From positions 1-64,000 of the forward strand of contig PNAA01000024.1 in NCBI GenBank assembly GCA_003169975.1: a DNA stretch of 64,000 nt, given 5' to 3'. The notes under the pieces were generated by a model. The model was not told where the DNA came from. It did not search any database and was given only the letters and a program-made list of their open reading frames with translations. Shown here piece by piece: positions 3,695 to 61,871 of the stretch (its first letter is position 1; each line of letters starts with the position of its first letter). A program made the translations under genes and the position numbers. Origin of the DNA: Spartobacteria bacterium. Its GTDB lineage: Bacteria > Verrucomicrobiota > Verrucomicrobiia > Chthoniobacterales > UBA10450.

Positions 3695-3962
3695 ACGGTG
3701 CGCGGAACGGCGGTGCGCGGAACGGGGTCGCGTCCGAACATTTGACATTTGAGCTGCGTGGGAAAAACAGGGGTCAGGCAGCCAATCTGGACAGGAAGCA
3801 ATCTTGCAGGACGAGGCGGACCGGCGGTTTCTTTCAGGAGTGGATTCTCTGTCAAAAAATGATGCCTGACCCACGGTGGATTCAATGCCGGACCTCTTCC
3901 CCGCGCGACGCGGCTGCGGCGGGCCCGATCGGGCACCTTAGCGCTACGTTTCGACAGGCGGT
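3695..3962 (+). repeat. RAYT-associated repeat, copy E2
   Basis: Second and longest copy of the E repeat. An internal unit of about 98 bp is bounded by an inverted pair, GGGTCAGGCA at 3775-3784 and TGCCTGACCC near 3862-3871. The part after 3871, including CCGGACCTCTTCCCCGCG and CTTCGACAGGCGG, is shared with E3 but not E1. A tandem GGTGCGCGGAACGG doublet lies at the left end. Confidence 0.7.
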
Positions 3963-5590: not shown

Positions 5591-5866
5591 TCACTTCTCC
5601 ACCGACTTCCAGATGAGTACCGGAACAGTGCCCTTGGGCACTTTCAATGCGTCCCCCGGCTTGGCCGGCAGCGGGCGCATCTTCACACATTCCACCGCTC
5701 CCACAGAGATCGGCGCCTCGATGGCAAAATGCAGGATCCATTCTTCCACCACTTTCGCCTTTGCCTCCGACTCCTTCATTCCCGGCGGCATGATTTGCGC
5801 CGTCACCAGGAAAGCGATTCCATCTGACTGTAATTCGAGTTCAAACAAACCCTTGAGCTGTTTCAT
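5591..5866 (-). CDS. Small hypothetical protein
   Basis: A 91-residue unrecognised product starting MKQLKGLFELELQSDGIAF and ending PVLIWKSVEK. Alternating hydrophobic and charged residues look protein-like, with no signal peptide or membrane span. A longer frame reaches 6025, but its extra N-terminus overlaps sequence that reads better as RAYT remnant. No clear Shine-Dalgarno sequence is visible. Confidence 0.4.
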   Translation of the reverse strand: MKQLKGLFELELQSDGIAFLVTAQIMPPGMKESEAKAKVVEEWILHFAIEAPISVGAVECVKMRPLPAKPGDALKVPKGTVPVLIWKSVEK

Positions 5867-5949
5867 GTGCCGGAGTGTATCCAATGGAGTGCGCGGGAGC
5901 AAAACTTCCTTGCGGGGCGGGAGTCGTTCGTGCTCACAAGACGAAACGA

Positions 5950-6345
5950 GAACTGACCATGTGCGGCACATTTGGAGTCTGTTTTGCCCAGACGCGGTGC
6001 CGGGCGCGGACTGGTTCAAGCGCACGCTCGTCCCGACGTTGCCTGACCAGCAATTGAAAGGGCGCCAGGAAGTGACGGGTCTGTGGCGCGGGGTTGCGAG
6101 GCTGAGTGCCGAGGTGGTCTTGCAGGCGGTGGCGAAGCACTATGGGTTGTCGGTGCGACGGTTGCGGGAAAAGGGAGGTCGTGGTCTGGAGGCGCGCAAC
6201 GTGGCGCTGTGGCTGATCTGGGAGAGGTGTGGTTTGAGTCAGCGGGAGTTGGGCGAGCTATTTGGAGGGATGAATTACGCCGCGCCGCGGCAGCGCAACG
6301 GCTGCGGCGGCTCAAGCCGGAGAGTCGCCAGGTGGCTGAGATAAT
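5950..6345 (+). pseudogene. Truncated REP-associated tyrosine transposase (C-terminal part)
   Basis: Reads as the C-terminal end of a RAYT/IS200-like REP transposase: a DWFKRTLVPTLPDQQ-like segment, then the DnaA-like helix-turn-helix region VAKHYGLSVRRLREKG, ARNVALWLIWERCGLSQREL and GELFGGMNYAA. The catalytic N-terminal half (HUH and tyrosine) is missing. The last helix runs into a frameshift where AVSQR would be expected. It is immediately followed by repeat E3, the usual RAYT-REP arrangement. Confidence 0.65.
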
Positions 6346-6349
6346 TGAT

Positions 6350-6542
6350 TGGAACGTCAAATGTTCAAATCCTGACACGAAGCAATCCTTCAGGATAAGG
6401 CGGATCGGCGGTTTCTTCAGGAATGGACTCGCGGTAGAAATGATGCCTGACCCACGGTGGGTTCAACGCCGGACCTCTTCCCCGCGCTGACGCGGCTGCG
6501 GCGAGCCCGATTCGGGCATCTTAGCTATGCTTCGACAGGCGG
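6350..6542 (+). repeat. RAYT-associated repeat, copy E3
   Basis: Third copy of the E family, adjoining the transposase fossil. It shares CACGAAGCAATCCTTCAGGA, GATGCCTGACCCACGGTGG, CCGGACCTCTTCCCCGCG and CTTCGACAGGCGGG with E2. Confidence 0.7.
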
Positions 6543-6582
6543 GCCGTAACGCGGGTGAAGGAGCGGCCGGGCTTTCAGGCTC
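6543..6582 (+). repeat. Mini-element W, copy 1
   Basis: One of four copies of a roughly 40-bp unit of the form GCCGTAACGC...GAAG...GGCCGGGCTTTCA. Other copies are near 45,626-45,665 (+), 47,611-47,648 (-) and 61,646-61,692 (-). Confidence 0.5.
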
Positions 6583-6830
6583 CGGAGTTAGCGAAACGCC
6601 GCAACGTCATCGTCATCGCCGATGAAGCGCACCGCAGCCAATCCGACTTGATCGACGGACTCGCGCCCAATCTTCGCGACTCCGAGAAGGAATTAGCGAT
6701 CGCGAGACACGATCGCCAGCACGCGAGGGCGCGTGCGCTCCCCAATCCAAAGAGCTTCAACCGGCACGCCGATCGAGAAGACCGGCACCAATACGCGCGC
6801 GGTCTTCGGCGATTTGCCTCCCCCGAGGCT
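6555..6830 (+). pseudogene. Fossil of a type I restriction subunit (HsdR) helicase domain
   Basis: One frame reads RRNVIVIADEAHRSQSDLID, the Walker B/DEAH box segment of HsdR motor domains. About 90 bp later a different frame reads STGTPIEKTGTNTRAVFGD, the next conserved HsdR segment. The frame change and loss of both ends show a pseudogene. This HsdR is of a different subtype (DEAH) from the fragment at 58.5-59.2 kb. Confidence 0.65.
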
Positions 6831-7163
6831 CTACGAAAGTGGCTTCCCGTCGATTTTTTTGGGTGTTGCGTTGTCGTGCAGTCCACGACCACGGCTTCTT
6901 GCTGGCCGAGCTTGGCACGCCTTTGCAGCCGGCCGACACAACCCCGCTGCAGACCCTTTGCAGGCGCATTGCAACAGTCGCGCAAAGCGCGCGCGCCGCG
7001 TTGCCGGCGAGTCTGATTTCCCGGGCCGCGTTCTTCGGACGGCCGAATCACAGCGCCGACCATCGCAGCTTAACGCGGCGGGCGGCGCCCCACATTATCA
7101 ACTCAGAAGGCCGCGCGATTTTGAGATCGCGGACGGCGAGCGCGATTCGACTGCGAAGCGGCC

Positions 7164-7208
7164 TTGGAACAAACGCGCGATTTTTCGGAGAATCAGGTCG
7201 CGCACATA
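7164..7208 (+). repeat. Dispersed repeat, first copy (pair with 12,293)
   Basis: Begins TTGGAACAAACGCGCGATTT and continues TTCGGAGAATCAGGTCGCGC. A near-identical copy lies at 12,293-12,337, about 5.1 kb away in the same orientation. Confidence 0.6.
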
Positions 7209-7249
7209 CAGTCTGCTGTCACGATTAATAGAAGCTCCACGGGCAGATT

Positions 7250-7323
7250 CGATTGATTCGCTCGCGCACTCGCTGACCCTAGCGGGCTTCGTCTATGTCG
7301 CGCCGTGCCCGCGCGCTCCATTC
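7250..7323 (-). repeat. Mini-element X, copy 6
   Basis: Reverse-orientation copy of element X. The diagnostic parts are GATTGATTCGC, an AGCGGGC core, GTCTATGTCGC and GCTCCATTC. See the entry at 61,761 for the consensus. Confidence 0.55.
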
Positions 7324-7581
7324 CCGCCGGCGAAATTGTGGAGCCGACCTGGTGTGCCTGCGCGGGCTAATTCTCCGGAAGCGAAATAATCCTCACAAAG
7401 ACGGAATCAGGCGAAAAATGGTTGATTTTGCGGCACTTCACGAATCGGGGAATCGCCGATTCCAACAGGTGTCAAATCTCGAGCTTTTATTGAACCCGGC
7501 TGCCTGGCATTCGAGCACCGTGGCATCCCCGGCTACGTGCGCCGTCGCTCAAAAGGCGGTGCAGTGGATTCCGTCGCCCTT

Positions 7582-9321
7582 TCAATCTTTGGAGCGAGTG
7601 ACAGCCATCGCGCCTGCGAGCGGAAAGGCTTGCTTGTGCCTCAGATCGATCGCTCGAGCCTCGAAAATCACGCTGCCTTTGGGAAAGTCATGGACGGCAA
7701 ATATTCGACCGAATCCAGCGAAGGCCAGATGCGGGTTGCCCGACGCAATGGCCACGTCGGGCCGCGGAAGCCCCGTTTCCGTGACACCGAACAGTTTCCA
7801 TCGATCCATTTCGTCTCTAAAACCGAGGATTACACAATCCGCGGGCGCATCTCGTCCTGGAATCTGGCCCCACCCTTCCGCGAGGAGTCGATCGGGCGAG
7901 ACAAAGGCGACGCGATCGAGATAACCGGCGATCTTCGAGGTCGGCGTGTCTGATCGTTCTACGGCTCGCGTCAACGCGCCGTCGATAAGGCGTGGTCGCA
8001 AGGCATCGTGTTCCGCCAGAGTTCGAATCCTCTGCAGCGTCTCAGGATACGGCGATAAGAAATGCAAGTCCGGGTTGGCCGGAATCGCCAGACTCCAGCG
8101 TGCGACCAATTGGAGGTGCTGACGCTCGGTAGTGTTTCTTTCGAGTTGAGGCATCTCCTGGCGAAATGTGAAAACCCAGCCGGCAAGCAACAGAGCAGCC
8201 CCGACGAGCGCGACAAATTTCGGGCAAATTGATCGTTCGACGTTCTGATAGGCAGTACAGAACAGGCCGATGACGGCGATGTAGAGAAAGACGGTGAAGA
8301 CGGTGTAGCGAACATCAAAAGCCACAGCAACGCCGAAGCCGACGCGACCTGAGGCAGTAACCAGACCTGAAATCAACACGTAGCTTCCAAGGTTCAACCA
8401 AGGGTAGAAAGCGCGCCGGGAATCTTCCCGTTCGGCGCGCCTGATTGCGACGACAACCAGCCACGCAAACAGACTCAAGATGAACACGCCGACGAACGCC
8501 GGCGCGGAAGTTATGAAGAGATCGCCGACCCAGATTGTGAAGTAGTGGAGAAGCCGCGGAAGCTTCGAGATACCGATGGCAAAGGGAGGGGTGTCGGGCG
8601 GGTGTTTGTAACCAATGAAATAAGCCGCGATCGAGACAATTCCCGCGAGCGAATAAGCAATGCGCCAGAACCTCCGGTCAGCGGTGGATTCGGAAACTGG
8701 AAGCCCTTTCCACTGCGCTGGGAAAGCCAAAAGCCATACGAGCATTCCGTTGGCGCAGGTGTAGGTGCTGAGCAACGCGAGCAGGCCGTTAGTCATCGCT
8801 TTCATGCGGAACGACTTCGCGCGCAGGTTGCAAACCAGCGCGAAAACCAGAGCAAAGGCCGGAGTAAAATTTTCACCCTCGATCCCGTAGAGGAAGTTCT
8901 CATACTGGCGCGGCGAGAAGAGCAAGAGATTCATGAAGATGAACCCGCAGCACGCAATGGGGCGCGAGACGCATTGCCGTAGCAAACAATACAATCCGGC
9001 AGAGCCGGCGCAGACCCACGCGAAGGTTAGCGCCATGCCGTAACGCACATCCCAGCCAGCCGGCACGAAAAGGGCAAGGTAAAGCAGTCGGGGAAACAAT
9101 TTGCGCGATTCATTGTGTTGACTCCAAAGATCAGCAAAGTGAAGCGTGCCCCGGTAATAGGAGGCGAGCGTGTCGCCCGGCGTGAGCCACTCGTCCCACC
9201 ATGGCACGGCGACCCAATGGGTGAGCATCACGTGAAACGCCCAGCAAATCGGCAGCGCAACCAGCGCCGCGCAGAGAACTCTGCTTGCAACCTTATTCGG
9301 GATTAGCTCTTTCATATCCAT
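7582..9321 (-). CDS. Polytopic membrane protein of unknown function
   Basis: About 579 residues from the MDMKELIPNK start. Roughly ten or more hydrophobic segments cover residues 15-420. A charged extracytoplasmic C-terminal part of about 150 residues ends in IFEARAIDLRHKQAFPL. The general plan (membrane core, aromatic VPWWDEWLTPGD loop after the first span) resembles GT-C type or PMT-like glycosyltransferases and DUF2029-like proteins, but no catalytic motif could be fixed. A frame up to 9522 exists, but it would overlap the next gene and begins with non-coding-like sequence. Confidence 0.6.
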   Translation of the reverse strand: MDMKELIPNKVASRVLCAALVALPICWAFHVMLTHWVAVPWWDEWLTPGDTLASYYRGTLHFADLWSQHNESRKLFPRLLYLALFVPAGWDVRYGMALTFAWVCAGSAGLYCLLRQCVSRPIACCGFIFMNLLLFSPRQYENFLYGIEGENFTPAFALVFALVCNLRAKSFRMKAMTNGLLALLSTYTCANGMLVWLLAFPAQWKGLPVSESTADRRFWRIAYSLAGIVSIAAYFIGYKHPPDTPPFAIGISKLPRLLHYFTIWVGDLFITSAPAFVGVFILSLFAWLVVVAIRRAEREDSRRAFYPWLNLGSYVLISGLVTASGRVGFGVAVAFDVRYTVFTVFLYIAVIGLFCTAYQNVERSICPKFVALVGAALLLAGWVFTFRQEMPQLERNTTERQHLQLVARWSLAIPANPDLHFLSPYPETLQRIRTLAEHDALRPRLIDGALTRAVERSDTPTSKIAGYLDRVAFVSPDRLLAEGWGQIPGRDAPADCVILGFRDEMDRWKLFGVTETGLPRPDVAIASGNPHLAFAGFGRIFAVHDFPKGSVIFEARAIDLRHKQAFPLAGAMAVTRSKD

Positions 9322-23088: not shown

Positions 23089-23093
23089 GCGCT

Positions 23094-23189
23094 TGTAGAC
23101 GCCTCGCTCTGCGAGGCGCGAGGGAAATCTCGTCAGCTAGTCCGACGATCGGCGCGCCGTGCCACGCTTCGCAGAGCGAAACGTCTACA
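23094..23189. repeat. Paired REP palindrome (BIME), TGTAGACG class
   Basis: Left palindrome begins TGTAGACGCCTCGCTCTGCG; right arm is CGCTTCGCAGAGCGAAACG then TCTACA. The two inward-facing units fill the gap between convergent rpsI and the TPR gene and can form a bidirectional terminator-like fold. Related elements: 26,188-26,293 and 32,278-32,303. Confidence 0.75.
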
Positions 23190-26141: not shown

Positions 26142-26187
26142 TGGTGAGGGCGATACTCGCGGTGAGATGCCGTCGCGTAAAGGGAGC

Positions 26188-26293
26188 TGTAGACGCCGCC
26201 CTCTGGGCGGCGTGAGTCTGCGTGTGAATGGGGCGAATGAATCGCGAGCGAGCGACGCCCGAGCCTCGCGCTTCGCAGAGCGAAGCGTCTACA
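26188..26293. repeat. Paired REP palindrome (BIME), TGTAGACG class
   Basis: Left unit begins TGTAGACGCCGCCCTCTGGG; right unit ends GCAGAGCGAAGCGTCTACA. Same class as 23,094-23,189. It lies between the EamA gene start and the rnpB terminator. Confidence 0.7.
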
Positions 26294-26301
26294 TCAAAGT
26301 G

Positions 26302-26333: not shown

Positions 26334-26336
26334 ATT

Positions 26337-26764
26337 TCGATGGCGATAAGCCGAATTCTGTTCCCCGGATTTCTCCGGGGCGATGATCATTTATCTCATC
26401 CAGCTTGCGCCGGACGCCCGCCGAGCCGCGGTCGGCGGTCATAGACCGCCGCTACAGCCCGGCGTGATGCGACGATACCCGAGGGTTTAACGGACCGGCT
26501 GCCCTTCCTCTGTTTTGTCTTGCACCGCATGGGGTTTTTCCTGCCTCGCCGCTTGCGCGTCGAGCGGTGAGCTCTTACCTCGCCTTTTCACCTTTGCCTC
26601 CCGAACGCTTGCGCGCTCGTCAGGCCGTATGTTTTCTGTGACACTTTCCGTCGCAGTTCCCTTTCGCGAACCGCGCCCGCGCTTTCTGCGCGGCATGCTG
26701 CCGTTTGGTGTTCGGACTTTCCTCTGGCCGGCCTCGCGGCTGACCAGCGATCATCTGCCATCGC
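26337..26764 (-). ncRNA. rnpB: RNase P RNA (catalytic subunit)
   Basis: On the minus strand the 5' conserved block GAGGAAAGTCCGAACACC occurs at about 26,713-26,730. The 3' conserved tail reads ACAGAATTCGGCTTATC near 26,345-26,361, preceded by GGATGAGATAAATGATCATC. Terminal bases pair as helix P1 (CGATGGC with GCCATCG), which sets the ends. The length of about 428 nt suits a bacterial type A RNA that is slightly long. A REP-like palindrome (26,433-26,457) sits in the 3' third. The RNA removes 5' leaders from pre-tRNA with the RnpA protein. Confidence 0.9.
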
Positions 26765-28850: not shown

Positions 28851-28948
28851 GAACCTCTGATGATTCTCGTGCCACGCTGCGCTGGGCGAAGCATCGACAA
28901 GGCGAAATCCAGCGGACGCCGCATCTGTCTGTGCAATTGGCGGATTCT

Positions 28949-32238: not shown

Positions 32239-32277
32239 GCGGAAAGCTCGCCGCCTTCAAGCGCGGTCGCAACGCTG

Positions 32278-32303
32278 TTGTAGACGCTTCGCTCTGCGAA
32301 GCG
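32278..32303. repeat. Single REP palindrome, TGTAGACG class
   Basis: One palindrome, GTAGACGCTTCGCTCTGCG then AAGCG, matching the paired elements at 23.1 and 26.2 kb. It stands upstream of the DUF4326 gene. Confidence 0.6.
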
Positions 32304-32401
32304 CGAGAGCCAGCTTCGTTCGCGCAAGAGTCATCGCGCAGCCCACCCTGATACCCGCGCCTCCCAGGGGCCGGCGCCTACAAATGGCTCCTGGCCCATC
32401 G

Positions 32402-43281: not shown

Positions 43282-44277
43282 TTAAAGCGCCGGCTCTACC
43301 ACCGACCTCACAGGCAGCGGCTTCACCGTGCCGGCCTGCGCTGGGTGCCTCTGCGGGGTCACCCCCGTAGCCGGCCGGTCCGACGTCCCGCTAACGAGGC
43401 GGGCTAGAAGTCCGTGCTCAGCGCCAGTGCTATCATCGTAACGCCCAACGATCAGCCCCGCCTCGTTGATCCCATTAAGGGATGTGAAGCTGGAACCAGG
43501 AAAATCGTAGGTGATGTAGGTGCTTGGTGGGATGAAGACGAATCCATGGGTTGCTCCTGAACTGTCGGGGTATCTGCCCACAATAGTGTTGCTATTGTTA
43601 TTACCAAAGACGATCGTCCCGGTCGACCCCGCGGGATCGATCGGAGAAACAATCGAGCCATCGCTGTTCCGGTAGTAGCCGTGGCTGACGGATGAGCTAT
43701 CGAGATAATAACCCGCTGCCTGGTTTGAATTGTTAATCCCATAGGCAAGGGTCGCGGTAGATCCTGACACCAGGAACTCCGTAACGGTTCCTCCAATGCT
43801 GACGTATCCCGACTGAGTTCCGCTACTGGGAATGTCAGAGCCGCAGAAGTCGTTCGCATTGTTTAGTCCCAATACGATCGTCCATGACGAGCCGGGCACA
43901 AGGTAGTCATAAAAGGCCGCGCCTCTCAAAAAGAAACCATGATAGTTGCCAGTGGTCGGATCCACATAATCGCCGCCGACCCTGAGTGAGTTATTGATGG
44001 CTCGGCCTTGAGTCGTTCCTCCGGTGTCGTTGGGATCAACCAGCGGGGCGCTAAAGTGCCCGTTTGGGAATCGGACAAAACCGCTCGACAACCCGCTCGT
44101 GTCGACAAAGACGCCGATAACGGCGCCCGTGCCGCTGATTTTTTGTGGTTGCGTCGAGACTACGGAGCCCGGGTAATCAAAGGTGTTGATTAACTGGACA
44201 CTTTGCGCAAACACCCCTAGCACTGGAAGTGCGAGAAGGGCGGTCAAGCAAGAGACGATTGTATTTTTTGTTTTCAT
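43282..44277 (-). CDS. Secreted HAF-repeat protein
   Basis: A 331-residue protein with a signal peptide (MKTKNTIVSCLTALLALPVLGVFAQ). About six repeats of roughly 45 residues follow, each with a (G)IN(N)...G.Y.D.SG..HGF pattern: TTQGRAINNSLRVGGDYVDP, LAYGINNSNQAAGYYLDSSS, IVFGNNNSNTIVGRYPDSSG and SLNGINEAGLIVGRYDDSTG. These are HAF/extracellular repeats of unknown function, frequent in soil bacteria. The last 40 residues are proline-rich and unlike the rest. The fragment at 11,866-12,189 is a broken relative. Confidence 0.75.
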   Translation of the reverse strand: MKTKNTIVSCLTALLALPVLGVFAQSVQLINTFDYPGSVVSTQPQKISGTGAVIGVFVDTSGLSSGFVRFPNGHFSAPLVDPNDTGGTTQGRAINNSLRVGGDYVDPTTGNYHGFFLRGAAFYDYLVPGSSWTIVLGLNNANDFCGSDIPSSGTQSGYVSIGGTVTEFLVSGSTATLAYGINNSNQAAGYYLDSSSVSHGYYRNSDGSIVSPIDPAGSTGTIVFGNNNSNTIVGRYPDSSGATHGFVFIPPSTYITYDFPGSSFTSLNGINEAGLIVGRYDDSTGAEHGLLARLVSGTSDRPATGVTPQRHPAQAGTVKPLPVRSVVEPAL

Positions 44278-44990
44278 ATTTTGTTTATCCTCTAAAGGAA
44301 TCTGCTAAGCAGTTCGATCCTTCATGTCAAGCTAAATTTTGGCTCCCCGGCGGGTGGGCGATTGGCCTCGCTGGGGGCGAGCTTACGCGAGCTTTCATTT
44401 ATGAAAGATTGGGCGCGCAAAATCGGATCAGGAACGCAGGAAATATGTAGAGGTGGCGTGCCGCCCGCAGATCTTGGAATCTGGAACCCAGGAGTCCAGG
44501 AAACCTGGGGGTGCCGCCCGTAGACTGAATAAGCACCCGGAGGGACGTGGCGACCGGCTGGACCCCGCAAACCGTGCCAGACAAACTCGAAGCAGAAGAT
44601 AACTCTCAAACCCGCCTTATCTTAGCGCCATTCGGGCCAGGTGTCAGGTGATGGGCGTCGGGTCTGTCCTGCGTAAGTTAAGAACGCGCTCCGCGCATCA
44701 GATCCCGCCGCAAAAACCGCAAGTCCCGTCCTTATCGGTTTTTGCAACGAAATCTGATGCGCTCAATTCATCCTTTGTCGAAACGACTTACGAACGCTCG
44801 TTGTGACGCCCATCACCTGACACTTGGCCAGTGAGGACTGGCCCCAGATCACGTCGCAAATAAAGTTGTTGACCCGAGCGAGAGCGGCTCTCTACGCTGC
44901 GGCCGTTGATTGCCCTGGCTGTTGTTCTCGGCCCTGAGTGGGGACGGGAATGACTCGCAGCCGCAATCATAGCTGAATGAAAGAACCTAT
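44278..44990. other. Repeat-rich spacer
   Basis: No gene recognised. It contains an AT-rich promoter-like stretch before the HAF gene, short palindromes (AGCTTACGCGAGCTTTC near 44,380; a CCAGGAGTCCAGGAAACCTGG run near 44,488), and the 195-bp long inverted repeat at 44,635-44,829. Confidence 0.5.
44635..44829. repeat. 195-bp long imperfect inverted repeat
   Basis: The ends pair over about 25 bases (GTGTCAGGTGATGGGCGTC against GACGCCCATCACCTGACAC). Further in, CGTAAGT pairs with ACTTACG, then GCGCATCAGAT with ATCTGATGCGC, and GCAAAAACCG with CGGTTTTTGC, leaving a loop of about 15 bases. The whole segment can therefore fold as one hairpin. It may be a MITE with long terminal inverted repeats or a structured RNA. 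Confidence 0.75.
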
Positions 44991-45467
44991 ATGAAAATCG
45001 TCACCTTAATACTCGCAGTAACAGTCTTGGCCCTGCCCGCGCTCGCCCAGGAAAAGAAGATGGCAGCCAAGCCAGCCAAAGGCGCCAGCGTCGAAGCGGC
45101 CGTGAAAGGGCTGGAGGACGGCTGGGAAGCAGCCATCATGAAGCACGACACCAAACCGATCGACGAAGTCGTCGCGTCTGACTTTGCCGGCGTGGGGCAC
45201 GACGGCAAGCTACTCGGCAAGACGGGCCTGCTGCAGGAGCAAGTGAAGAGCAACCACGACACCTACACCTTGGCCACCCTTAACCACGTGATCGTGCGCG
45301 CTTACGGCTCGAACGTCGCGGTGGCGATCGGCGATGCGCGCGAGAAAGGTACCGGGAAAGACGGCAAAGCCTTCGATCGCACCTACCGTTTCACCGACAC
45401 CTGGGTCGAGCGCAACGGGAAGTGGGAGTGCGTCGCCGAACAGGTCGCGCAGGTCTCAGGCAAGTAA
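44991..45467 (+). CDS. Secreted SnoaL/DUF4440-like (NTF2 fold) protein
   Basis: A 158-residue protein with a signal peptide (MKIVTLILAVTVLALPALAQ). The mature part follows an NTF2-like plan: a helix (VEAAVKGLEDGWEAAIMKHD), DEVVASDFAGVGHDGKLLGK, then strands (VIVRAYGSNVAVAIGDAREK, YRFTDTWVERNGKWECVAEQ). This matches DUF4440/SnoaL-like proteins, often of unknown function. The lysine- and alanine-rich segment after the signal is probably flexible. Confidence 0.75.
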   Translation: MKIVTLILAVTVLALPALAQEKKMAAKPAKGASVEAAVKGLEDGWEAAIMKHDTKPIDEVVASDFAGVGHDGKLLGKTGLLQEQVKSNHDTYTLATLNHVIVRAYGSNVAVAIGDAREKGTGKDGKAFDRTYRFTDTWVERNGKWECVAEQVAQVSGK

Positions 45468-45470
45468 ACG

Positions 45471-45567
45471 CTGGGGAGCGAACGAGACGCCGGTCGCGGT
45501 CGTCGGCGGGAGCATCTACGCGACCACGGTGAACGGCAACATCGACTCGCTCAGCTTGGCGCTTTAG
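45471..45567 (+). pseudogene. Duplicated 3' end of a PQQ-propeller gene
   Basis: Reads GANETPVAVVGGSIYATTVN then GNIDSLSLAL and a stop. It is a near-copy of the last 33 codons of the fragment at 47,156-47,470. The similarity continues past the stop to about 45,710, so a DNA segment of roughly 200 bp was duplicated. It lies directly after the DUF4440-like gene. Confidence 0.65.
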
Positions 45568-45999
45568 TAGCACGCCCCCACAACGCCCTCAGACGGCGTT
45601 CGGGACCGGCTGCTGCCTTCAGGTGCCCCGTAACGCAGCCGAAGGCGAGGCCAGGCTTTCAAACCTGGCCATCAACGCTCCCACCCGTCGAGTCCCACTG
45701 CCACCAAGTGAAAGGGAGCGCTCTTGGATTCAAACCAGATTTTGCACGATTCAATGACCCCGACTTCCACGTGAAGCAGGAATGTTCGCCGGGCAGTTCA
45801 ATGAACATGGCGGTCCAGGCAAACAAGGTTGCCCGTGAAGCAAACAAGCGTGCCCGCCGGCTTGTGTTAAGCCGCCTCGCCAGGTAAGAGTGTTCAGAGT
45901 CCAGGCAAACCCACCTGTCCCGCAACCTCCGGGGAGCGCGCGCCCTCGCGTAGCGGACACTTAGGCGGGGGATGTAATAGCCCTGCTTCGTCCGGCGCG
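45568..45999. other. Spacer with duplicated segment and mini-element W
   Basis: 45,568-45,710 matches 47,471-47,558, interrupted by a W element (about 45,626-45,665). The rest shows no gene. Confidence 0.45.
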
Positions 46000-46740
46000 C
46001 TACTGGGCGCTTCCAATTTCCTTGAAGGTGGTGGCGATGCGCACTTCGTCAAACGCATAGGAGCCGTCGTTATTGCCCACATTGATACGGATCATATCCA
46101 AGCTAAAAAATGGCATCGTTAACGTTGCATCCGGCACCGGCGGCTCGATCGGGCCAGGGGTTGGATTAACGTAAAGACTTTGCGTCAGCGTGTGAAAATC
46201 GAGTTTCACCACCAGCCAGTCCGCCGCCGTAGTGCTCGGCGAGAAAGGCGTCAGCGCCCGCTGCCCGTTGTTGTTATCAATTCCGTAGACAAAGCTGTTA
46301 GAGATCAGGCCATAGCCGGAAAAGGAGTAACCCACCCCGAGGACCGCGTAGCCTGAAGTGGCCGCGTTCAGGTTCCGGATCAGAAAACCGATCCAAACAA
46401 TCCCGCGGTGAACGAAGGAGAGATTCGCCACGGCCTCGTCTCCAAACGTTCCGATATCGCTGAAGACGGCCGCACCCGGAGCAGAGAAAACATGTCGATA
46501 GCGCAGGCCGCTAAGCATAACCTGCGGATCTCCAGGCAGGACCCTGGTCCATCCAGTCTGCCCGGGAGGGCTGCCGGCCGGCGGACCATCACCCGAAAGA
46601 GATCCAACAGGGTATTGGAAACTGTCGGAGAAAAGCAGGTCACCGCGAGCGGTAGACATGCCGAACGTTAGACTCATCGCCGCACCGAGCGTGGCGAGGA
46701 GGAGACACCGAGAGGGCTGCTGTTTGATGGCTATTTTCAT
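46000..46740 (-). CDS. Secreted hypothetical protein with concanavalin-like fold
   Basis: About 246 residues. Signal peptide in MKIAIKQQPSRCLLLATLGA and AAMSLTFGMSTARG. The mature part begins LLFSDSFQYPVGSLSGDGPP, a start common to exported LamG/jelly-roll-like proteins of this lineage that are often annotated with PEP-CTERM tails. Further beta-strand segments are SFVHRGIVWIGFLIRNLNAA and WLVVKLDFHTLTQSLYVNPT. No PEP-CTERM sorting tail is present here. Function unknown. Confidence 0.6.
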   Translation of the reverse strand: MKIAIKQQPSRCLLLATLGAAMSLTFGMSTARGDLLFSDSFQYPVGSLSGDGPPAGSPPGQTGWTRVLPGDPQVMLSGLRYRHVFSAPGAAVFSDIGTFGDEAVANLSFVHRGIVWIGFLIRNLNAATSGYAVLGVGYSFSGYGLISNSFVYGIDNNNGQRALTPFSPSTTAADWLVVKLDFHTLTQSLYVNPTPGPIEPPVPDATLTMPFFSLDMIRINVGNNDGSYAFDEVRIATTFKEIGSAQ

Positions 46741-47155
46741 TAGCTTATTGTGCTGCTTACTGTTTGGTTTTTTGCTTCCGAAAGTGGAGCGCAGTCCTGG
46801 CACGCTTTACGCAGACTTTCAGCTTTTCGGACGGAGGTCGAGCTTTTCTTTCCCATTCTTGACGCGGCTTCGTGCGGCACAGTTGGAAATCCCAGCCACA
46901 GCAAAGCAGCGGATTGTCGGGGAAAGGTGCGTCCACAATGGTCTCAGTGACAGGTTCGTTCGAGTCCAGCCGGAAAATCGCGCCCTCGCGATCACGAAGG
47001 TTGCGCCTTGCTGCCTCACTTCTACAGGTCAGTCGCAATCTCTTCGCGCAGTAGGACGCTAAGACCGTGATCGAGGAGATCGCCGAGTTCATCCTCACTC
47101 ATGGTTAGCTGGATTGGACGATGGACATCCTTGCCTGAGCCGCGGAAACCAATTT
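46741..47155. other. Spacer with possible antitoxin remnant
   Basis: No intact gene. On the minus strand around 47,022-47,102 a short frame reads MSEDELGDLLDHGLSVLLRE, resembling the end of a small antitoxin, but nothing recognisable accompanies it. Confidence 0.35.
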
Positions 47156-47470
47156 GCAGGGGAGCTCGTCGCCTTCGCGGTCGCGGGCTGCGGGGAGGCG
47201 GTGTGCAGCCCACTGTGGACGTCGGCGCCGTCTGGGCTCGCCCTCTTCACGCCGACGATCGCCAACGGCGTCGTCTATGTCGGCGCGCTCGACTTCATCT
47301 ACACGCAAGGCGACGTGCTTGCGTACCCGACCACGTGCATCGACGGATGCGAGCCGCTCGCGACGCTCGTCCTGGGCGGAGCGAACGAGACGCCGGCCGC
47401 GGTCGCCGGCGGGCGTATCTACGCGACCACGGTGAACGGCAACATCGACTCGTTCGGCTTGGCGCTGTAG
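47156..47470 (+). pseudogene. 3' fragment of a PQQ-like beta-propeller gene
   Basis: The frame reads AGCGEAVCSPLWTSAPSGLA, TIANGVVYVGALDFIYTQGD, VLAYPTTCIDGCEPLATLVL and GANETPAAVAGGRIYATTVN then GNIDSFGLAL and stop. These are about two blades of a PQQ-binding-like propeller with VCSPLW and VVYVG blade markers. The 5' part is missing. The 3' end is duplicated at 45,471-45,567. Confidence 0.65.
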
Positions 47471-47610
47471 TAGTACGCCCTCACACGGTGTTTGGGACCG
47501 GTTGTCTTCCGGTGCCGAACTCGGCCATCAGCGCTCCCACCTGTCGGAGTCCAGTGCAGGAGTCGGAACGGGGTCTGATCTTTTCAGACGCGACTCCGTC
47601 GACGCCGACT

Positions 47611-47648
47611 TTTGAAAGCCCGGCCGTTGCTCCGCATCCGTTACGGCA
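47611..47648 (-). repeat. Mini-element W, copy 3
   Basis: TTTTGAAAGCCCGGCCG ... GTTACGGCAG, in the opposite orientation to the copy at 6,543. It lies in the 292-bp spacer before the acetyltransferase gene, which otherwise shows no gene. Confidence 0.5.
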
Positions 47649-47762
47649 GCTTTCAGAAGGTAGATGCCCCGCGACCCAGCACAGATCTGGGTGGGGCAAG
47701 GTGCCGTCGAATCGGACTGCACTGTAGAGAGGCTAAAGCCTCGGCCAAACTACACCATCGCA

Positions 47763-48281
47763 TCAGCTATTGGCGAACACGTTCACCTCGGCGGCGTCGG
47801 CCGTCAGTCGAGCCAGCCGCTCAAAGCGAAATCCGAGCTTCTCGAGAAGCGCGACTGACGCGTGATTGTCTGGGGAAGTGACGGCAAGCAGTCGCGACAT
47901 TCCAAAAGCGCATCGCCCGTAGTCCATGACTGCGGCGGCCGACTCGAAGGCAAACCCTTTACCCCAAAACGCCGGCAGGAAAGCAAACCCAAGATCAACA
48001 TCGTCCAATGAATCGCGCTTGATCAACCCGCAGATCCCAATGGGCTCGCCACTCTCTTTGAGCTCGACCAGATACAAGCCAAAGCCGAGACGTCGATACA
48101 TCGCAACTGGACCATTCTCGATGTAATGGCGAGCGTCTTCGACCGTGCGGACGCCCTTGTCACCGATATAGCGCAGCCACGACGGTTCATTCAAAAGCTG
48201 AAGCATAAACGTCGCATCGTCTGATTCGAGCCAGCGCAATGCGAGCCGCGCCGTCTCCAAAACCTTCACGTACGACTTCAC
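47763..48281 (-). CDS. GNAT-family N-acetyltransferase (RimJ/RimL-like)
   Basis: A 172-residue protein. The N-terminal VLETARLALRWLESDDATFM is typical of RimJ/RimL-like GNATs. IGICGLIKRDSLDDVDLGFA and FLPAFWGKGFAFESAAAVMD hold the acetyl-CoA binding strand-loop-helix (GKGFA in place of the usual Q/RxxGxG/A). SPDNHASVALLEKLGFRFER is the closing motif B. It probably acetylates a protein N-terminus or a small molecule. It stands alone on the minus strand. Confidence 0.8.
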   Translation of the reverse strand: MKSYVKVLETARLALRWLESDDATFMLQLLNEPSWLRYIGDKGVRTVEDARHYIENGPVAMYRRLGFGLYLVELKESGEPIGICGLIKRDSLDDVDLGFAFLPAFWGKGFAFESAAAVMDYGRCAFGMSRLLAVTSPDNHASVALLEKLGFRFERLARLTADAAEVNVFANS

Positions 48282-48690
48282 AGTTTCGTCACTCAGCGTT
48301 AGCGCTTCAAATCCGCCGCGATTTGATTGACTCGAACTGCCCCCAGTTCTCGGGCTGCGCCCCGCTTTGCATGTCTATGTCGCACCGCTCCCGCGGGCTC
48401 CATTGACTCGCAGTCGCCCGTATGCTCTCCCTTTCGGGTTTGCCCATCTATGTCGCGGCTTCCCATCACGCTCCATTCAGCGAACTGGGCGACTTCGAAA
48501 GTGTTCGCGAGCAGGCGATGGAACCCAAGTTTGCGCAGGTGATTCATGCTACACCTGCCTAAGCGATGCCGCCCATCCCGGCAAACCCGGCAGGAAGGAT
48601 CGAGACCCCTGCGAGCGGTTCCGCTAAGGCCCGATTCCTTTCTTTCTCCGCTGTCAAGATTTGTTGCCTGACCCCTATTCCCCCCTTCCG
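48282..48690. other. Spacer with mini-element X and E-repeat fragment
   Basis: A 172-codon minus-strand frame exists (48,299-48,817) but passes through repeat sequence and has no protein-like features. Element X copy 1 occupies 48,372-48,478. GCTGTCAAGATTTGTTGCC at about 48,653 then TGACCCC matches one end of the RAYT-type repeat E. Confidence 0.5.
48372..48478 (-). repeat. Mini-element X, copy 1
   Basis: Reverse-oriented full copy with an extra half unit. In the element's own direction it reads AATGGAGC, CGCGACATAGA, ACCCGAAAGGGAGAGC, GCGAGTCAATGGAGC and GCGACATAGAC, which is the same order as the copy at 61,761-61,871. Confidence 0.65.
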
Positions 48691-49158
48691 CTAGGGATGA
48701 TGGAAACCGGAGAAAATCCCGCTGAGCAAGCTTCCAAAGATCGCCATGATGGTGAAGAGGAGAATGATCAACACGGGAATAAAGCAGCAAAAGACGAGGA
48801 ACGCCGCCGCCGCCCATTTGAAGAGAAGTTTGACGATGGAGAGGAAAGGAAGGTCGATATCAACGAGCTTCACGGCTGAGCCGGCGGGAACCTTTCGGGT
48901 GGGCAGGGAAGGTGGAGAGGATCGCGCGCCGTAGATCGGTGAATCTTCCGACCGGACTAACGGGGAGGTAGGCGCCGGCAATTGCGTTCCGTATTTCAAG
49001 TTCGGCAAATAATCATCAATCGTCTTCCACGCGCCAGTGGTCCCGAGCCGGCAAGGCGTGTTCCGATCCACCCGGCCGTCCGCGAAAAGCTGCGATACCT
49101 GTTCTTCGGAGTACGGTCCTTCTTCGCGATCGTAAAGTTTGAGGAGGTAGGAGTTCAT
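48691..49158 (-). CDS. GYF_2 (DUF4339) domain membrane protein
   Basis: A 155-residue protein. N-terminal GYF_2 domain (YLLKLYDREEGPYSEEQVSQ, then GRVDRNTPCRLGTTGAWKTI), a proline-rich linker, and a strongly hydrophobic C-terminal helix pair (LLFKWAAAAFLVFCCFIPVL, IILLFTIMAIFGSLLSGIF). GYF_2 domains are thought to bind proline-rich peptides. The start overlaps the stop of the upstream nuclease-like gene by four bases, so the two are probably coupled. Confidence 0.78.
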   Translation of the reverse strand: MNSYLLKLYDREEGPYSEEQVSQLFADGRVDRNTPCRLGTTGAWKTIDDYLPNLKYGTQLPAPTSPLVRSEDSPIYGARSSPPSLPTRKVPAGSAVKLVDIDLPFLSIVKLLFKWAAAAFLVFCCFIPVLIILLFTIMAIFGSLLSGIFSGFHHP

Positions 49159-49679
49159 GTTCCGTGCGCTTTGTAATAAGCGACAATCTCAGCGAGATCG
49201 CCCCCAGCCGACGCGGAGAACGCTCCTCGTTTCGAGAGGCTCGACAGGATTGCGTGAAACGGATGCAAAATCACTCCTTCACGTGCAAAAACCTCCAGCT
49301 CGTGCGGATCGCGGACGTTTGCATGGACGAAATGAAAAACCCAGGCGACGCCCGGCCAAAGTTGTTCTCGCATCGCCACTTTCGCCTGAGCGCGAAATTT
49401 CGCCACGACCCACTCCTTTGCACAGGCCTCGACCTCTTCCACGGAGCGCTTGCGGGCGGAGAGTCGGCCGGTCGGCGAAGCCTTTGGAAGCTTGGCGATA
49501 AATCCGATTGGTCGAAAGCTGATCTGCACTTCGACATGCCATCCAACGATTGTCCCGTTAGGGTCTGCTCGCACGGCGAGCAAATCCATCTCATCGACGC
49601 CGTGCTTGACGCCACGGATCGTGAAGAAGCCTTCCCTGTTTAGCCACTCTTCGACCAGACTTTCAGCGAGGAGAGCCAT
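49155..49679 (-). CDS. Possible PD-(D/E)XK-like nuclease
   Basis: A 174-residue unrecognised product. N-terminal part VEEWLNREGFFTIRGVKHGV, DEMDLLAVRADPNGTIVGWH, VEVQISFRPIGF has the pattern helix, glycine-rich hairpin, D...(x)...VEVQ seen in PD-(D/E)XK nucleases (acidic residue, then E-x-Q/K). This is inference from motif spacing only. It lies between the restriction-modification debris and a GYF_2 protein and overlaps the latter. Confidence 0.5.
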   Translation of the reverse strand: MALLAESLVEEWLNREGFFTIRGVKHGVDEMDLLAVRADPNGTIVGWHVEVQISFRPIGFIAKLPKASPTGRLSARKRSVEEVEACAKEWVVAKFRAQAKVAMREQLWPGVAWVFHFVHANVRDPHELEVFAREGVILHPFHAILSSLSKRGAFSASAGGDLAEIVAYYKAHGT

Positions 49680-49688
49680 GTTATTTTT

Positions 49689-50170
49689 TCAAATCATTCG
49701 CAATTTCGGAGAATTGGGCGAGGGCGCTTGTAGGTCTTCGGTGATGTCGGCGGCGATGATTTCGGGGGCGGGGAGGTTGGCGCTGTCTTCGAGGGCTTCG
49801 TCTTTGAGCCAGAAGATGTCGAGGTTGATCTTGTCGCGCTTGATTAGCTCTTCGTAGTCGTAGGACCGCCAGCGGCCTTTATCGTTTTTTTCGGTCCAGG
49901 TCGGCTTTCGCTCGTGGCGGTTCTTCGGGTTGTAGCAGGCGACGAAGTCGTCGAGGTCGTTGCGTTTGAGCGTATTTTGATCAGCGCTGCAGCGCTGCCC
50001 CTTCGGGCTGGCATTCACCAGTCTATGTCGCAGTTGCTCCATTCCTTGAGCGTGACTGCCCGTCGCGAAGTGACAAGTCCAAAAAGAAAAGGCACTCTCG
50101 CAGAGCCGCCGTCGGCGGATAAATGGAGGTTCGTGCGCAAATCGTAAATCCAAAGTTTCTGTGTCCACGG
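49689..50170 (-). pseudogene. hsdM: 3' part of a type I DNA methyltransferase gene (hsdM)
   Basis: The last 75 codons read FVACYNPKNRHERKPTWTEK, RWRSYDYEELIKRDKINLDI and FWLKDEALEDSANLPAPEII, the normal C-terminal part of an HsdM of the N-6 adenine type. About 60 codons upstream, another frame reads PWTQKLWIYDLRTNLHL, which should directly precede it. Mini-element X (49,981-50,044) and other sequence separate the two. The upstream part of the gene lies at 51,163-52,245. Confidence 0.75.
49981..50044 (-). repeat. Mini-element X, copy 2 (inside hsdM)
   Basis: Contains GCCCCTTCGGGCTGG, GTCTATGTCGC and GCTCCATTC. It sits exactly where HsdM homology is interrupted, so its insertion is visible. 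Confidence 0.65.
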
Positions 50171-50184
50171 CTCTTGCCTCCCCA

Positions 50185-50235
50185 GGCTATGCTATTTTGC
50201 CGCCCTTGTTGATGAAGCGCGCTATCGCAGGCATT
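50185..50235 (+). repeat. Mini-element Z, first copy (pair with 51,011)
   Basis: GGCTATGC, TTTGCCGCCCT, TTGAT, AAGCGCGCTATCGCAGGC and ATTC. The same order occurs at 51,011-51,062. Both lie in hsdM debris, one on each side of the toxin-antitoxin pair. Confidence 0.5.
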
Positions 50236-50397
50236 CTCTGCGCGAGGTTGCGGTCGAAGAGCTGAAGCCGCGGGGCAGCGGCGAATCAGACGGGCAGGCC
50301 GAGAGGCTGAGCGAGCGGGAGAGAACGAATCAAGAGGACGTTCGCCTAATGCCAGTCCGGCTCGGACCTCCTTGGGCGTAGAAGATGCCAGTGGGCA

Positions 50398-50724
50398 TCA
50401 AGACTCGGGAATAAATATCAACGTGCGGGTTTTCGCTTTTGGCAGGGTCGCCAGCAGTTGATTCATCAACGGACGAGTATCGTCGAGCCGATTAGACTTC
50501 GCCCGCAACGCGATGACTGCGATAGCGTAACGCGCGAGGTTTTGCTGATGCACCATGTTGCCATCCATGGTGATAAGCGCGTCGAAGTCTGCCTCAACGG
50601 CTTTTCGTAACAGTTCGCCATTCTGAATTCCGGCCCAGCCCAACAACGGCACGGATTCAACCTCATGCCCCGGCAAATCACGGCGCAGACGCCAGTCGAG
50701 ATTCTCGTCCAGCAGGATACGCAT
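50398..50724 (-). CDS. DUF5615 PIN-like toxin
   Basis: A 108-residue protein beginning MRILLDENLDWRLRRDLPGH, with acidic PIN-like positions (DEN; DFDALITMDGN) and a final IFIPES. DUF5615 proteins are Mut7-C/PIN-like and are the usual partners of DUF433 antitoxins. The start overlaps the antitoxin stop by one base. The pair interrupts the hsdM pseudogene region. The RNase role is inferred from the family. Confidence 0.82.
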   Translation of the reverse strand: MRILLDENLDWRLRRDLPGHEVESVPLLGWAGIQNGELLRKAVEADFDALITMDGNMVHQQNLARYAIAVIALRAKSNRLDDTRPLMNQLLATLPKAKTRTLIFIPES

Positions 50725-50936
50725 CAGGGCGCGGCGAGAACATGCGCCCGCGATTCCTCGAGCAACGCGATGACCTGCTCGCGCTTCACGCTCGGGAAAC
50801 CCTCCAGAAACTGCTGGATCGAGTCTCCCGCTTCCAGGTGATCAAACAGGCTCTTCGCCGGCACCCGCGTGCCAGCAAACACCGGCTCGCCTCCGAGCAC
50901 CTCAGGACTTTGCGTAACGACTCTGCTCATAGCCAA
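50724..50936 (-). CDS. DUF433 antitoxin
   Basis: A 70-residue protein with the DUF433 signature PEVLGGEPVFAGTRVPAKSL, FDHLEAGDSIQQFLEGFPSV and REQVIALLEESRAHVLAA. It is a winged-helix-type DNA-binding antitoxin encoded directly before the DUF5615 toxin, probably autoregulating the pair. Confidence 0.82.
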   Translation of the reverse strand: MAMSRVVTQSPEVLGGEPVFAGTRVPAKSLFDHLEAGDSIQQFLEGFPSVKREQVIALLEESRAHVLAAP

Positions 50937-51010
50937 AGATTAACCTCAAATGATCGGAATGCCAGCAAACCTGCTTGGGTAATGCGCGGCGGATGGTTTG
51001 CCTTCACCAA

Positions 51011-51062
51011 GGCTATGCAAGTTTGCCGCCCTCTTGATAAACGCGCTTTCGCGCAGGCATTC
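51011..51062 (+). repeat. Mini-element Z, second copy
   Basis: Partner of 50,185-50,235. It begins GGCTATGCAAGTTTGCCGCC and ends CGCGCAGGCATTC. Confidence 0.5.
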
Positions 51063-51080
51063 GCCGGCGCCGCCTTCGAA

Positions 51081-51135
51081 GAATGGAGCCGCAAGGTCGC
51101 GAGCGACATAGACAGCGCAGAGCGCTGGGCGAAGG
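51081..51135 (+). repeat. Mini-element X, copy 7 (partial)
   Basis: GAATGGAGCCGC, GCGAGCGACATAGAC, then a diverged AGCGCAGAGCGCTGGG core. It adjoins the break in hsdM after the PDNVL codons. Confidence 0.55.
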
Positions 51136-51501
51136 CCGACTGAGCGGGGGCGAGGGAGTCAAGACGTTATCAGGCAACACCACCGCGGCGCGGCTGTGCT
51201 GCTTGAGGATGGTGAAGATGTGCTGGAGGAAATTGAGCTGCAATGCCAGTGCGGCTCGCCCTTACTCGCGCTCGCCCAGACTGCCTGCGCGGTAGCGCAC
51301 TTAAGAAAAGAGGGAGGCCAATCCGCAGAGCCGCAGTGGCGGCAAATTGTCGCGGTTGATGATGAGCGATTGCCGCGAAGTGCGCGGCGCTGGGGTTAGC
51401 CCTGTTTCATCGAACGGCTCTCCCGAGCCAAGCCAGTCCTTTGAGGTCTCGCCCGCTTCGTTGACGATGGTGACGCTGCTCTTCTTGCCGAAGGGCATGG
51501 G

Positions 51502-51575
51502 GGATTATCCCGCGTTGAGGCGGGCTCTGCGGTTAGGCTTTTCGTTGTTTAATTGCGCTTCCGCGCATGGCAGTG
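51502..51575. repeat. Mini-element Y, copy 1 (inside hsdM)
   Basis: TTATCCCGCGTTGAGGCGGG, CTCTGCG, a variable middle, and GCGCTTCCGCGCATGGCAGTG. It matches 58,896-58,969. It carries two small hairpins. Confidence 0.6.
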
Positions 51576-51583
51576 GCCAGGAC

Positions 51584-51657
51584 AATCGAGCCGCGGGGAC
51601 GCGAGCGAGATGGACGATAGCCCGAAGGGTGAGCAGATGGGAAGATGCGAATCAATG
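51584..51657 (+). repeat. Mini-element X, copy 3 (inside hsdM)
   Basis: AATCGAGCCGCGGGGACGCG, AGCGAGATGGACGATAGC, CCGAAGGGTGAGC, GATGCGAATCAATG. It is inserted between the KHGEYDI and PFGKKSS codons of hsdM, directly next to element Y1. Confidence 0.65.
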
Positions 51658-52309
51658 TCGTATTCGCCGTGCTTCGCGGCGAGCGCGTCCTTGGTCACGA
51701 CCGACAAACCGGATTCCAATGTCTGGCCGTCCGCCTCCGACCCGATGCCGTGGAGGAGCAGGTTCATCGCGCAGAGCCGCGTGACGCTGTCCACCAGCTC
51801 GATGCCGAGGAAGGTGCCGCTTTTGAGCTTCTTTTTTTGCGCCCGGTCGAGCTGATAATGCTTCGCGATATATCATGCGCCACGAGCAGGAAACCGCCCG
51901 TGCCGCAGGCCGGATCGCAAATCGTCTGGCCCGGCTGCGGGGCGACCGTGTCTACCATCGCGGCGATGAGCGGGCGCGGGGTGAAGTATTGGCCCGCGCC
52001 GCCTTTCACGTCCTCGGCGTTCTTTTGCAGCAACCCCTCGTAGGCGTCGCCCTTCACGTCGGCGGAAAGGCTGGACCATTGTTCCTTGTCGATCAGGTCC
52101 ACGATGAGCCGGCGCAGCTTCGCCGGGTCCTGGATTTTGTTTTGCGCCTTGCGAAAGATGACGCCCAGCATGCCCGACCGCTTGCCGAGTTCCCCCAGCG
52201 TATGCATGGACCAAGCCCCTCTTTCAATCTTGTCTCGCACGTCGCATCTCATCTTCCTGATCGACACAAGATGAGAATCTGGCAACTTTCCTCCGTTGCC
52301 AGATTTGCA

Positions 52310-61692: not shown

Positions 61693-61760
61693 AGCTCCGG
61701 CATTCGCGCGGATTTCTAGCGAGAGGACGGGAAAGCTGACAATTGAAAACTGACACGCTG

Positions 61761-61871
61761 AATGGAGCCCGCGGGGGCGGAGCGACATAGACGAAGCCCG
61801 AAGGGTGAGCGCATGGGAAATGCGCGAATCAATGGAGCGACCCGGGTGAGCGACATAGACGTGCGAAGCAC
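61761..61871 (+). repeat. Mini-element X, copy 5 (clearest)
   Basis: In order: AATGGAGC, a C/G-rich run, AGCGACATAGACGAA, GCCCGAAGGGTGAGC, GCATGGG, TGCGCGAATCAATGGAGC, GAGCGACATAGACG and GAAGCACGGGC. Taken as the reference for the family. It contains no gene. It lies in the 61,578-61,941 spacer. Confidence 0.7.

Follow-up and report, generated by a model that had tools for sequence, protein, structure and literature searches.

A 195-bp foldback element in a Spartobacteria genome, probably a miniature transposon with ends resembling those of an IS481-like family

A foldback element between divergent open reading frames

The window, i.e. the whole 64-kb stretch of DNA that was analysed, contains a 713-bp spacer (44278-44990) flanked by divergent open reading frames, as counted when a 95-aa mechanical ORF at 44322-44609 is ignored. 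The features of this region are the following.

43282-44277, minus strand: neighbouring ORF of 331 aa, without Pfam match at E 0.001
44619-44647, minus strand: promoter-like site, CTGACA / 17 nt / TAAGAT, 9 of 12 consensus positions, a consensus match only
44635-44829, no strand assigned: whole element, 195 bp, MITE-like foldback, based on the fold, the pairing of the arms and a relative in the genome G002
44635-44659, plus strand: left terminal inverted repeat, 25 bp; the end motif is also found beside an IS481-like transposase in L018
44672-44678, minus strand: 3' side of a 7-bp inner stem (ACTTACG on the minus strand), pairing with 44786-44792
44695-44760, minus strand: main hairpin of 25 pairs, also formed in G002, where two pairs differ by double changes and every departure is a G-U
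44786-44792, minus strand: 5' side of the 7-bp inner stem (CGTAAGT on the minus strand), pairing with 44672-44678
44805-44829, minus strand: right terminal inverted repeat, 25 bp, 24 of 25 bases identical to the left end of an insertion sequence (IS) in the genome G084
44830-44845, plus strand: right half of a dispersed 24-bp repeat, AGTGAGGACTGGCCCC, adjoining the element; the whole repeat is present on contig C32 of the own genome (G000:C32)
44991-45467, plus strand: neighbouring DUF4440 ORF, with a second copy in G000:C32

In the outer arms of the element (44635-44659 with 44805-44829), 24 of the 25 bases can pair, and these arms form part of 44-nt arms with 77% complementarity. Further inside, 27-nt arms (44693-44719 and 44736-44762) are 85% complementary on the plus strand, and when read on the minus strand with G-U pairs allowed, all 25 positions of 44695-44719 and 44736-44760 pair. 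The RNA minimum free energy of 44625-44839 is -103.9 (z -9.25); 200 shuffles averaged -64.8 (sd 4.2), and none of them scored as well. The element also contains the one exact inverted match of 18 bases in the entire window whose non-overlapping halves lie within 250 nt. An earlier note on this DNA had described a 195-bp foldback with near-identical 25-bp ends, standing alone in a long spacer, and both the outer pairing and the location bear this out; of its three further paired blocks, two are firm, namely the main hairpin and the 7-bp stem, while the remainder is weak.

With 195 bp the element offers at most 65 codons per frame, and a reading of the six frames by eye revealed no transposase gene. 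Moreover, no Rfam family covers it at gathering score; permissive settings returned two microRNA-hairpin families far under that score (30.7 versus 87 bits, E 0.0009, and 16.8 versus 90). The REP/RAYT class is defined (PMC3733652) by palindromes of 20-40 bp in high copy, and the element falls outside it through its length and its single copy in the own genome, as the earlier note had held. The first hexamer of the promoter-like site lies within the left end, and the site is directed outward, to the minus-strand ORF. Positions 44200-45050 contain three promoter-like sites of this type, where shuffles average 0.5; the same scan of this region yielded no terminator-like site, against 1.1 in shuffles.

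Relatives of the element and the origin of its ends

The own genome (G000) contains the element once. Ten matches at E up to 10 comprise the element itself, its own reverse strand and eight short, weak ones. Of these eight, the one that was read, in G000:C32, marks where a second copy of the element's right flank begins. A search of 58 genomes, the own included, recovered a relative at a contig end in G002, a member of the same genus, with 71% identity over 127 nt. This relative possesses the same left end and the same stems and layout, and the contig end cuts the copy before its right end; its surroundings are unrelated to the window, hence it occupies a different site. The third match of that search, 40 nt in G028, was discarded after reading, as were weak DNA matches at L012, L017, L019 and L020. 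A covariance model of the interior (R1, 145 columns) recovered only the window and G002 places, one each, across the family (83 genomes) and the order (213 genomes), in runs with strict filters that scored part of the candidates, so that weak copies may escape, and in which both places also appeared weakly on the plus strand. Three of the five genomes of the genus gave no match to this structure model, and a distant DNA search found the element in no plasmid or phage at E 0.01.

The end motif, with up to three mismatches, was found nine times in the 83 family genomes (window two, G002 one, G084 two, G068 one and three others), compared to zero for the reversed control. Three matches (L127, L128 and L131) lack a tblastn transposase match and showed no paired end on reading, and were taken as chance; inverted repeats around the motif were searched in L126, L127, L128 and L131 only. 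Among 387 genomes of the phylum there were five matches, two being those of the window itself; L157, L158 and L160 were set aside on the same two grounds. The 103 stretches with the 15-base end core in viral contigs, 80 of which were listed, were likewise taken as chance, as our own estimate was about 100. The earlier note had proposed a search for further copies sharing the ends. Its motif, GTGTCAGGTGATGGGCGTC, returned two matches (L013 and L014) in 84,980 species genomes, a collection that may omit records of the own genome, and by eye both fall in coding sequence, so that this check alone would mislead.

The G084 match was obtained with the G002 copy as query in the 83 family genomes, G084 belonging to the same family. 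The frame in question, of 406 codons (L018 1591-2808 plus stop), encodes a protein similar to IS481 transposases. Against the NCBIfam IS481 model the protein reached E 1.8e-21 and 76.9 bits over 297 residues, below the model cutoff of 224, and it is therefore IS481-like rather than filed as a member of the IS481 family; Pfam matched its HTH part only, and the DDE part was without match. The left side of this IS reads GGCCAAGTGACAGGTGATGGGCGTCAGG, agreeing at 24 of 25 positions with the right end of the element in the window, and its right side carries the core motif AGGTGATGGGCGTCAGG inverted, with the right end cut short. A relative of the transposase in another family (52% identity in the genome search, 51% by tblastn), the sole further one at E 1e-30 or better among the 387 phylum genomes, has GGCAAGTGTCACATGATGCAGGTCAG at both ends (L022). 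At E 1e-10 the G084 transposase is present in one of the 83 family genomes, the own genome being without match, and none was found in plasmids and viral contigs. A remnant of the right end of a G084-type IS was recognised by eye in G068 (15 residues, 87%, E 0.004). The interiors of the element and of the G084 IS are unlike, as judged by eye. Going by the sequences, the ends of the element are those of an IS481-like transposon.

These ends also bear on two other explanations. The element may be a relic, in which an internal deletion joined the two ends of an IS481-like element and left neither activity nor function today. The single copy, the own genome being devoid of a match to the G084 transposase, and the decay of the family seen in the cut G084 right end and the G068 remnant speak for this, whereas a chance deletion would not share its interior (about 70%, with the same stems) with the G002 element elsewhere; a relic that then moved becomes the miniature transposon proposed below. 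We regard inert remains as quite unlikely. Alternatively, the long imperfect hairpin with its short flanking stems could point to a target of a site-specific recombinase, to an attC hairpin like those of integrons or to a retron ncRNA, but by eye there are neither attC core sites nor a reverse transcriptase among the listed neighbouring ORFs (three proteins of which were Pfam-scanned), and the ends belong to an IS481-like element, rendering such an origin extremely improbable. The attC and retron readings, and that of a riboswitch, were abandoned as unsupported.

A dispersed 24-bp repeat beside the copies

G000:C32 contains a second version of the element's right flank (44830-45493), 97.7% identical and without the element. 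The identity begins exactly at the element border, where G000:C32 reads GTGTCGATAGTGAGGACTGGCCCC. To the left of the G002 copy stands GTGTCAATAGTGAGG. When at most one mismatch was allowed, this 15-mer occurred at 11 places in the five genomes of the genus (one in G000, eight in G002 and two in G003), compared to one, in G004, for the reversed control. Six of the 11 (L162, L164, L165, L169, L171 and L172) extend into the 24-bp repeat, with at most one disagreement among the last 9 bases; L163 is the element, and the other four do not extend into it. The consensus of the repeat was drawn up after its places had been seen. Intact copies of it stand in G000:C32 and elsewhere in G002 and G003.

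The half-sites beside the window and G002 copies overlap by AGTGAGG, which together with the intact site suggests a 7-bp target duplication. The earlier note had proposed to look for flanking duplications, and no single copy displays both sides: at the window copy the flanks share no duplication, the left half of the target is missing and the left flank is unrelated, and since that half is missing in the window, we infer the duplication across the two copies. IS481 elements mostly generate 6-bp duplications, with a range of 2-15 (PMC10045372), which makes a length of 7 bp permissible though atypical. Next to the right end of the G084 IS stands ACTGACCC, short but consistent with the 24-bp repeat; no such repeat flanks the class-level relative in L022. 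In a check for empty sites, the 1,863 bases preceding the G002 copy had matches at 12 more places within the genus; none of these matches extends past base 1,686, and all therefore stop short of the border of the G002 element.

It is possible that the 24-bp repeat is a REP-like target for the IS481-like family. Insertion beside or inside a dispersed repeat is shared with REP-targeting ISs, the repeat here being only REP-like; PMC1525189 names IS3, IS110, IS4, IS256 and IS5 in this role, with IS481 absent from its text, and in passages of PMC9769881 IS481 appears only in an IS table. A loose regular expression for the wider REP class matched the window 12 times, with a mean of 12.5 in 20 shuffles, and the claim is accordingly limited to the 24-bp repeat.

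Two further observations concern the surroundings. In G002:C215 (L141), a TPR-protein frame on the minus strand, 3746 to about 5089, is open across the element border with its nearest upstream stop inside the element, and it may have lost its start at the insertion. In the own genome, positions 5768-8966 of G000:C32, an 11.6-kb contig, repeat four large pieces of window 44830-52204 at 92-98% and in the same order; these hold the DUF4440 ORF and then, by eye, acetyltransferase-like and DNA-methylase-like ORFs, with smaller pieces at 81-91% and partly out of order. This likeness stems either from a segmental duplication or from an assembly that includes a second strain.

The minus-strand hairpin and a probable mobile element

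The window and G002 sequences were compared for 35 inner pairs on the minus strand, and each displays 30 Watson-Crick and 5 G-U pairs, with no A-C or other mismatch. RNAalifold of the two minus-strand sequences gave 37 pairs. In four of these both partners have changed, two of the four lying in the main hairpin (columns 52/103 and 65/90) and two in a 2-pair stem outside the 35; the pairs were picked from the same two sequences, which favours agreement. All seven wobble-type departures in the 25-pair hairpin are G-U on the minus strand, equivalent to A-C on the plus strand (one-sided chance of 1 in 128, in a test conceived after seeing the data and with two sequences only), and one departure in the outer arms runs the opposite way. 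Taken alone, the G002 interior surpasses its shuffles only modestly in folding (z -2.0, plus strand), and the minus strand of the window reaches z -6.4. The inner hairpin seems to be preserved, and the pattern fits selection on a minus-strand RNA.

The earlier note had left the choice between a MITE and a structured RNA. The latter would be a small RNA or leader made from the minus strand, with transposon-like ends that are incidental or a means of spread, and is as such compatible with a mobile element. Besides the minus-strand pairing and the double changes, a same-strand ORF follows in both genomes (43282-44277 in the window, 3746-4930 in L141). However, the comparison consists of two sequences and a post hoc test, strand-biased mutation yields the same G-U bias, the outer-arm departure goes the other way, and terminator-like sites, an Rfam family and a match in three of the five genus genomes are lacking. 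Additionally, the ORF in G002 may be broken by the insertion, and the other neighbour in the window runs in the opposite direction. We consider a functional RNA of this type somewhat unlikely.

The element is quite likely a non-autonomous miniature transposon (MITE), the ends of which would be cut in trans by a related IS481-like DDE transposase. The ends are shared with the G084 IS around its transposase, a second copy occurs at an unrelated site in G002, and the hairpin is conserved between the copies; against this stand the single copy in the own genome, the restriction of the structure to two of 213 genomes of the order under strict filters, and the lacking duplication at one copy. In the mechanism that we propose, the 25-bp ends would represent binding and cleavage sites for the IS481-like transposase, supplied by a full-length relative elsewhere in the family, and the element would have moved in trans into the dispersed REP-like 24-bp repeat, where 7 bp, AGTGAGG, were probably duplicated. 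Any transcript of the insert, chiefly one from the minus strand, would fold into a long hairpin; the insert could then influence transcripts nearby by serving as an RNase target, by forming a barrier or by way of an outward promoter. A bolder version, where a MITE lineage under selection for the minus-strand RNA hairpin homes to REP-like repeats via the IS481-like transposase, in effect a small mobile RNA gene with site preference, we consider unlikely.

NEMIS/Correia elements occur in high copy number. They are found in Neisseria, span about 100-200 bp with 24-bp ends, and give rise to a long stem-loop transcript, and RNase III cleaves the hairpin RNA of such a MITE in Neisseria (PMC2229807 and PMC10969869). 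The present element resembles them in being short, in ends of similar length and in the long stem-loop expected if transcribed, but has IS481-like ends rather than the 5'-TA ends described there (PMC2229807), and a single copy. YPAL/RU-2 and ERIC are folding elements of 168 and 127 bp, and the targets of YPAL span or adjoin dyad symmetry (PMC2229807); their ends differ, and those of our element lead back to an IS that encodes a transposase. Non-autonomous IS481EU families are on record in Trichomonas (PMC10045372). The G084 partner matches NCBIfam IS481 but scores below the model cutoff, and the element here is bacterial, 195 bp long and equipped with a long inner hairpin, with 7 bp as the probable duplication.

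Thus, the element adds a new example to a known kind, that of NEMIS/Correia, ERIC and YPAL. Its value lies in a gene-less foldback element that can be linked to a plausible parent transposase family, and in a possible case of an IS481-like family with REP-like repeats as targets; apart from the link to the parent family and the minus-strand pairing, it is an ordinary mobile repeat.

The window contains other repeats as well, 20 families being listed of at least 60. A 108-nt direct repeat (45475-45582 and 47378-47485, 92% identical) is by eye the tail of an ORF, a longer relative of which is located beside the G084 IS in L018. A palindromic repeat around TGTAGACGCTTCGCTCTGCGAAGCG is present in both orientations at 23093-23189, 26187-26296, 28868-28899 and 32276-32307, and a dispersed repeat, AATGGAGCC...GACATAGAC, also in both orientations, at 7283-7323, 48373-48404, 48446-48477, 51081-51113 and 61760-61800. 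An inverted pair, GGGGTCAGGCA...GACAG (3766-3794 and 48651-48679), is perhaps of the same class as the target repeat of the element, a class for which the loose expression above showed no enrichment. Finally, Rfam identifies a bacterial RNase P RNA of class A at 26334-26763 on the minus strand.
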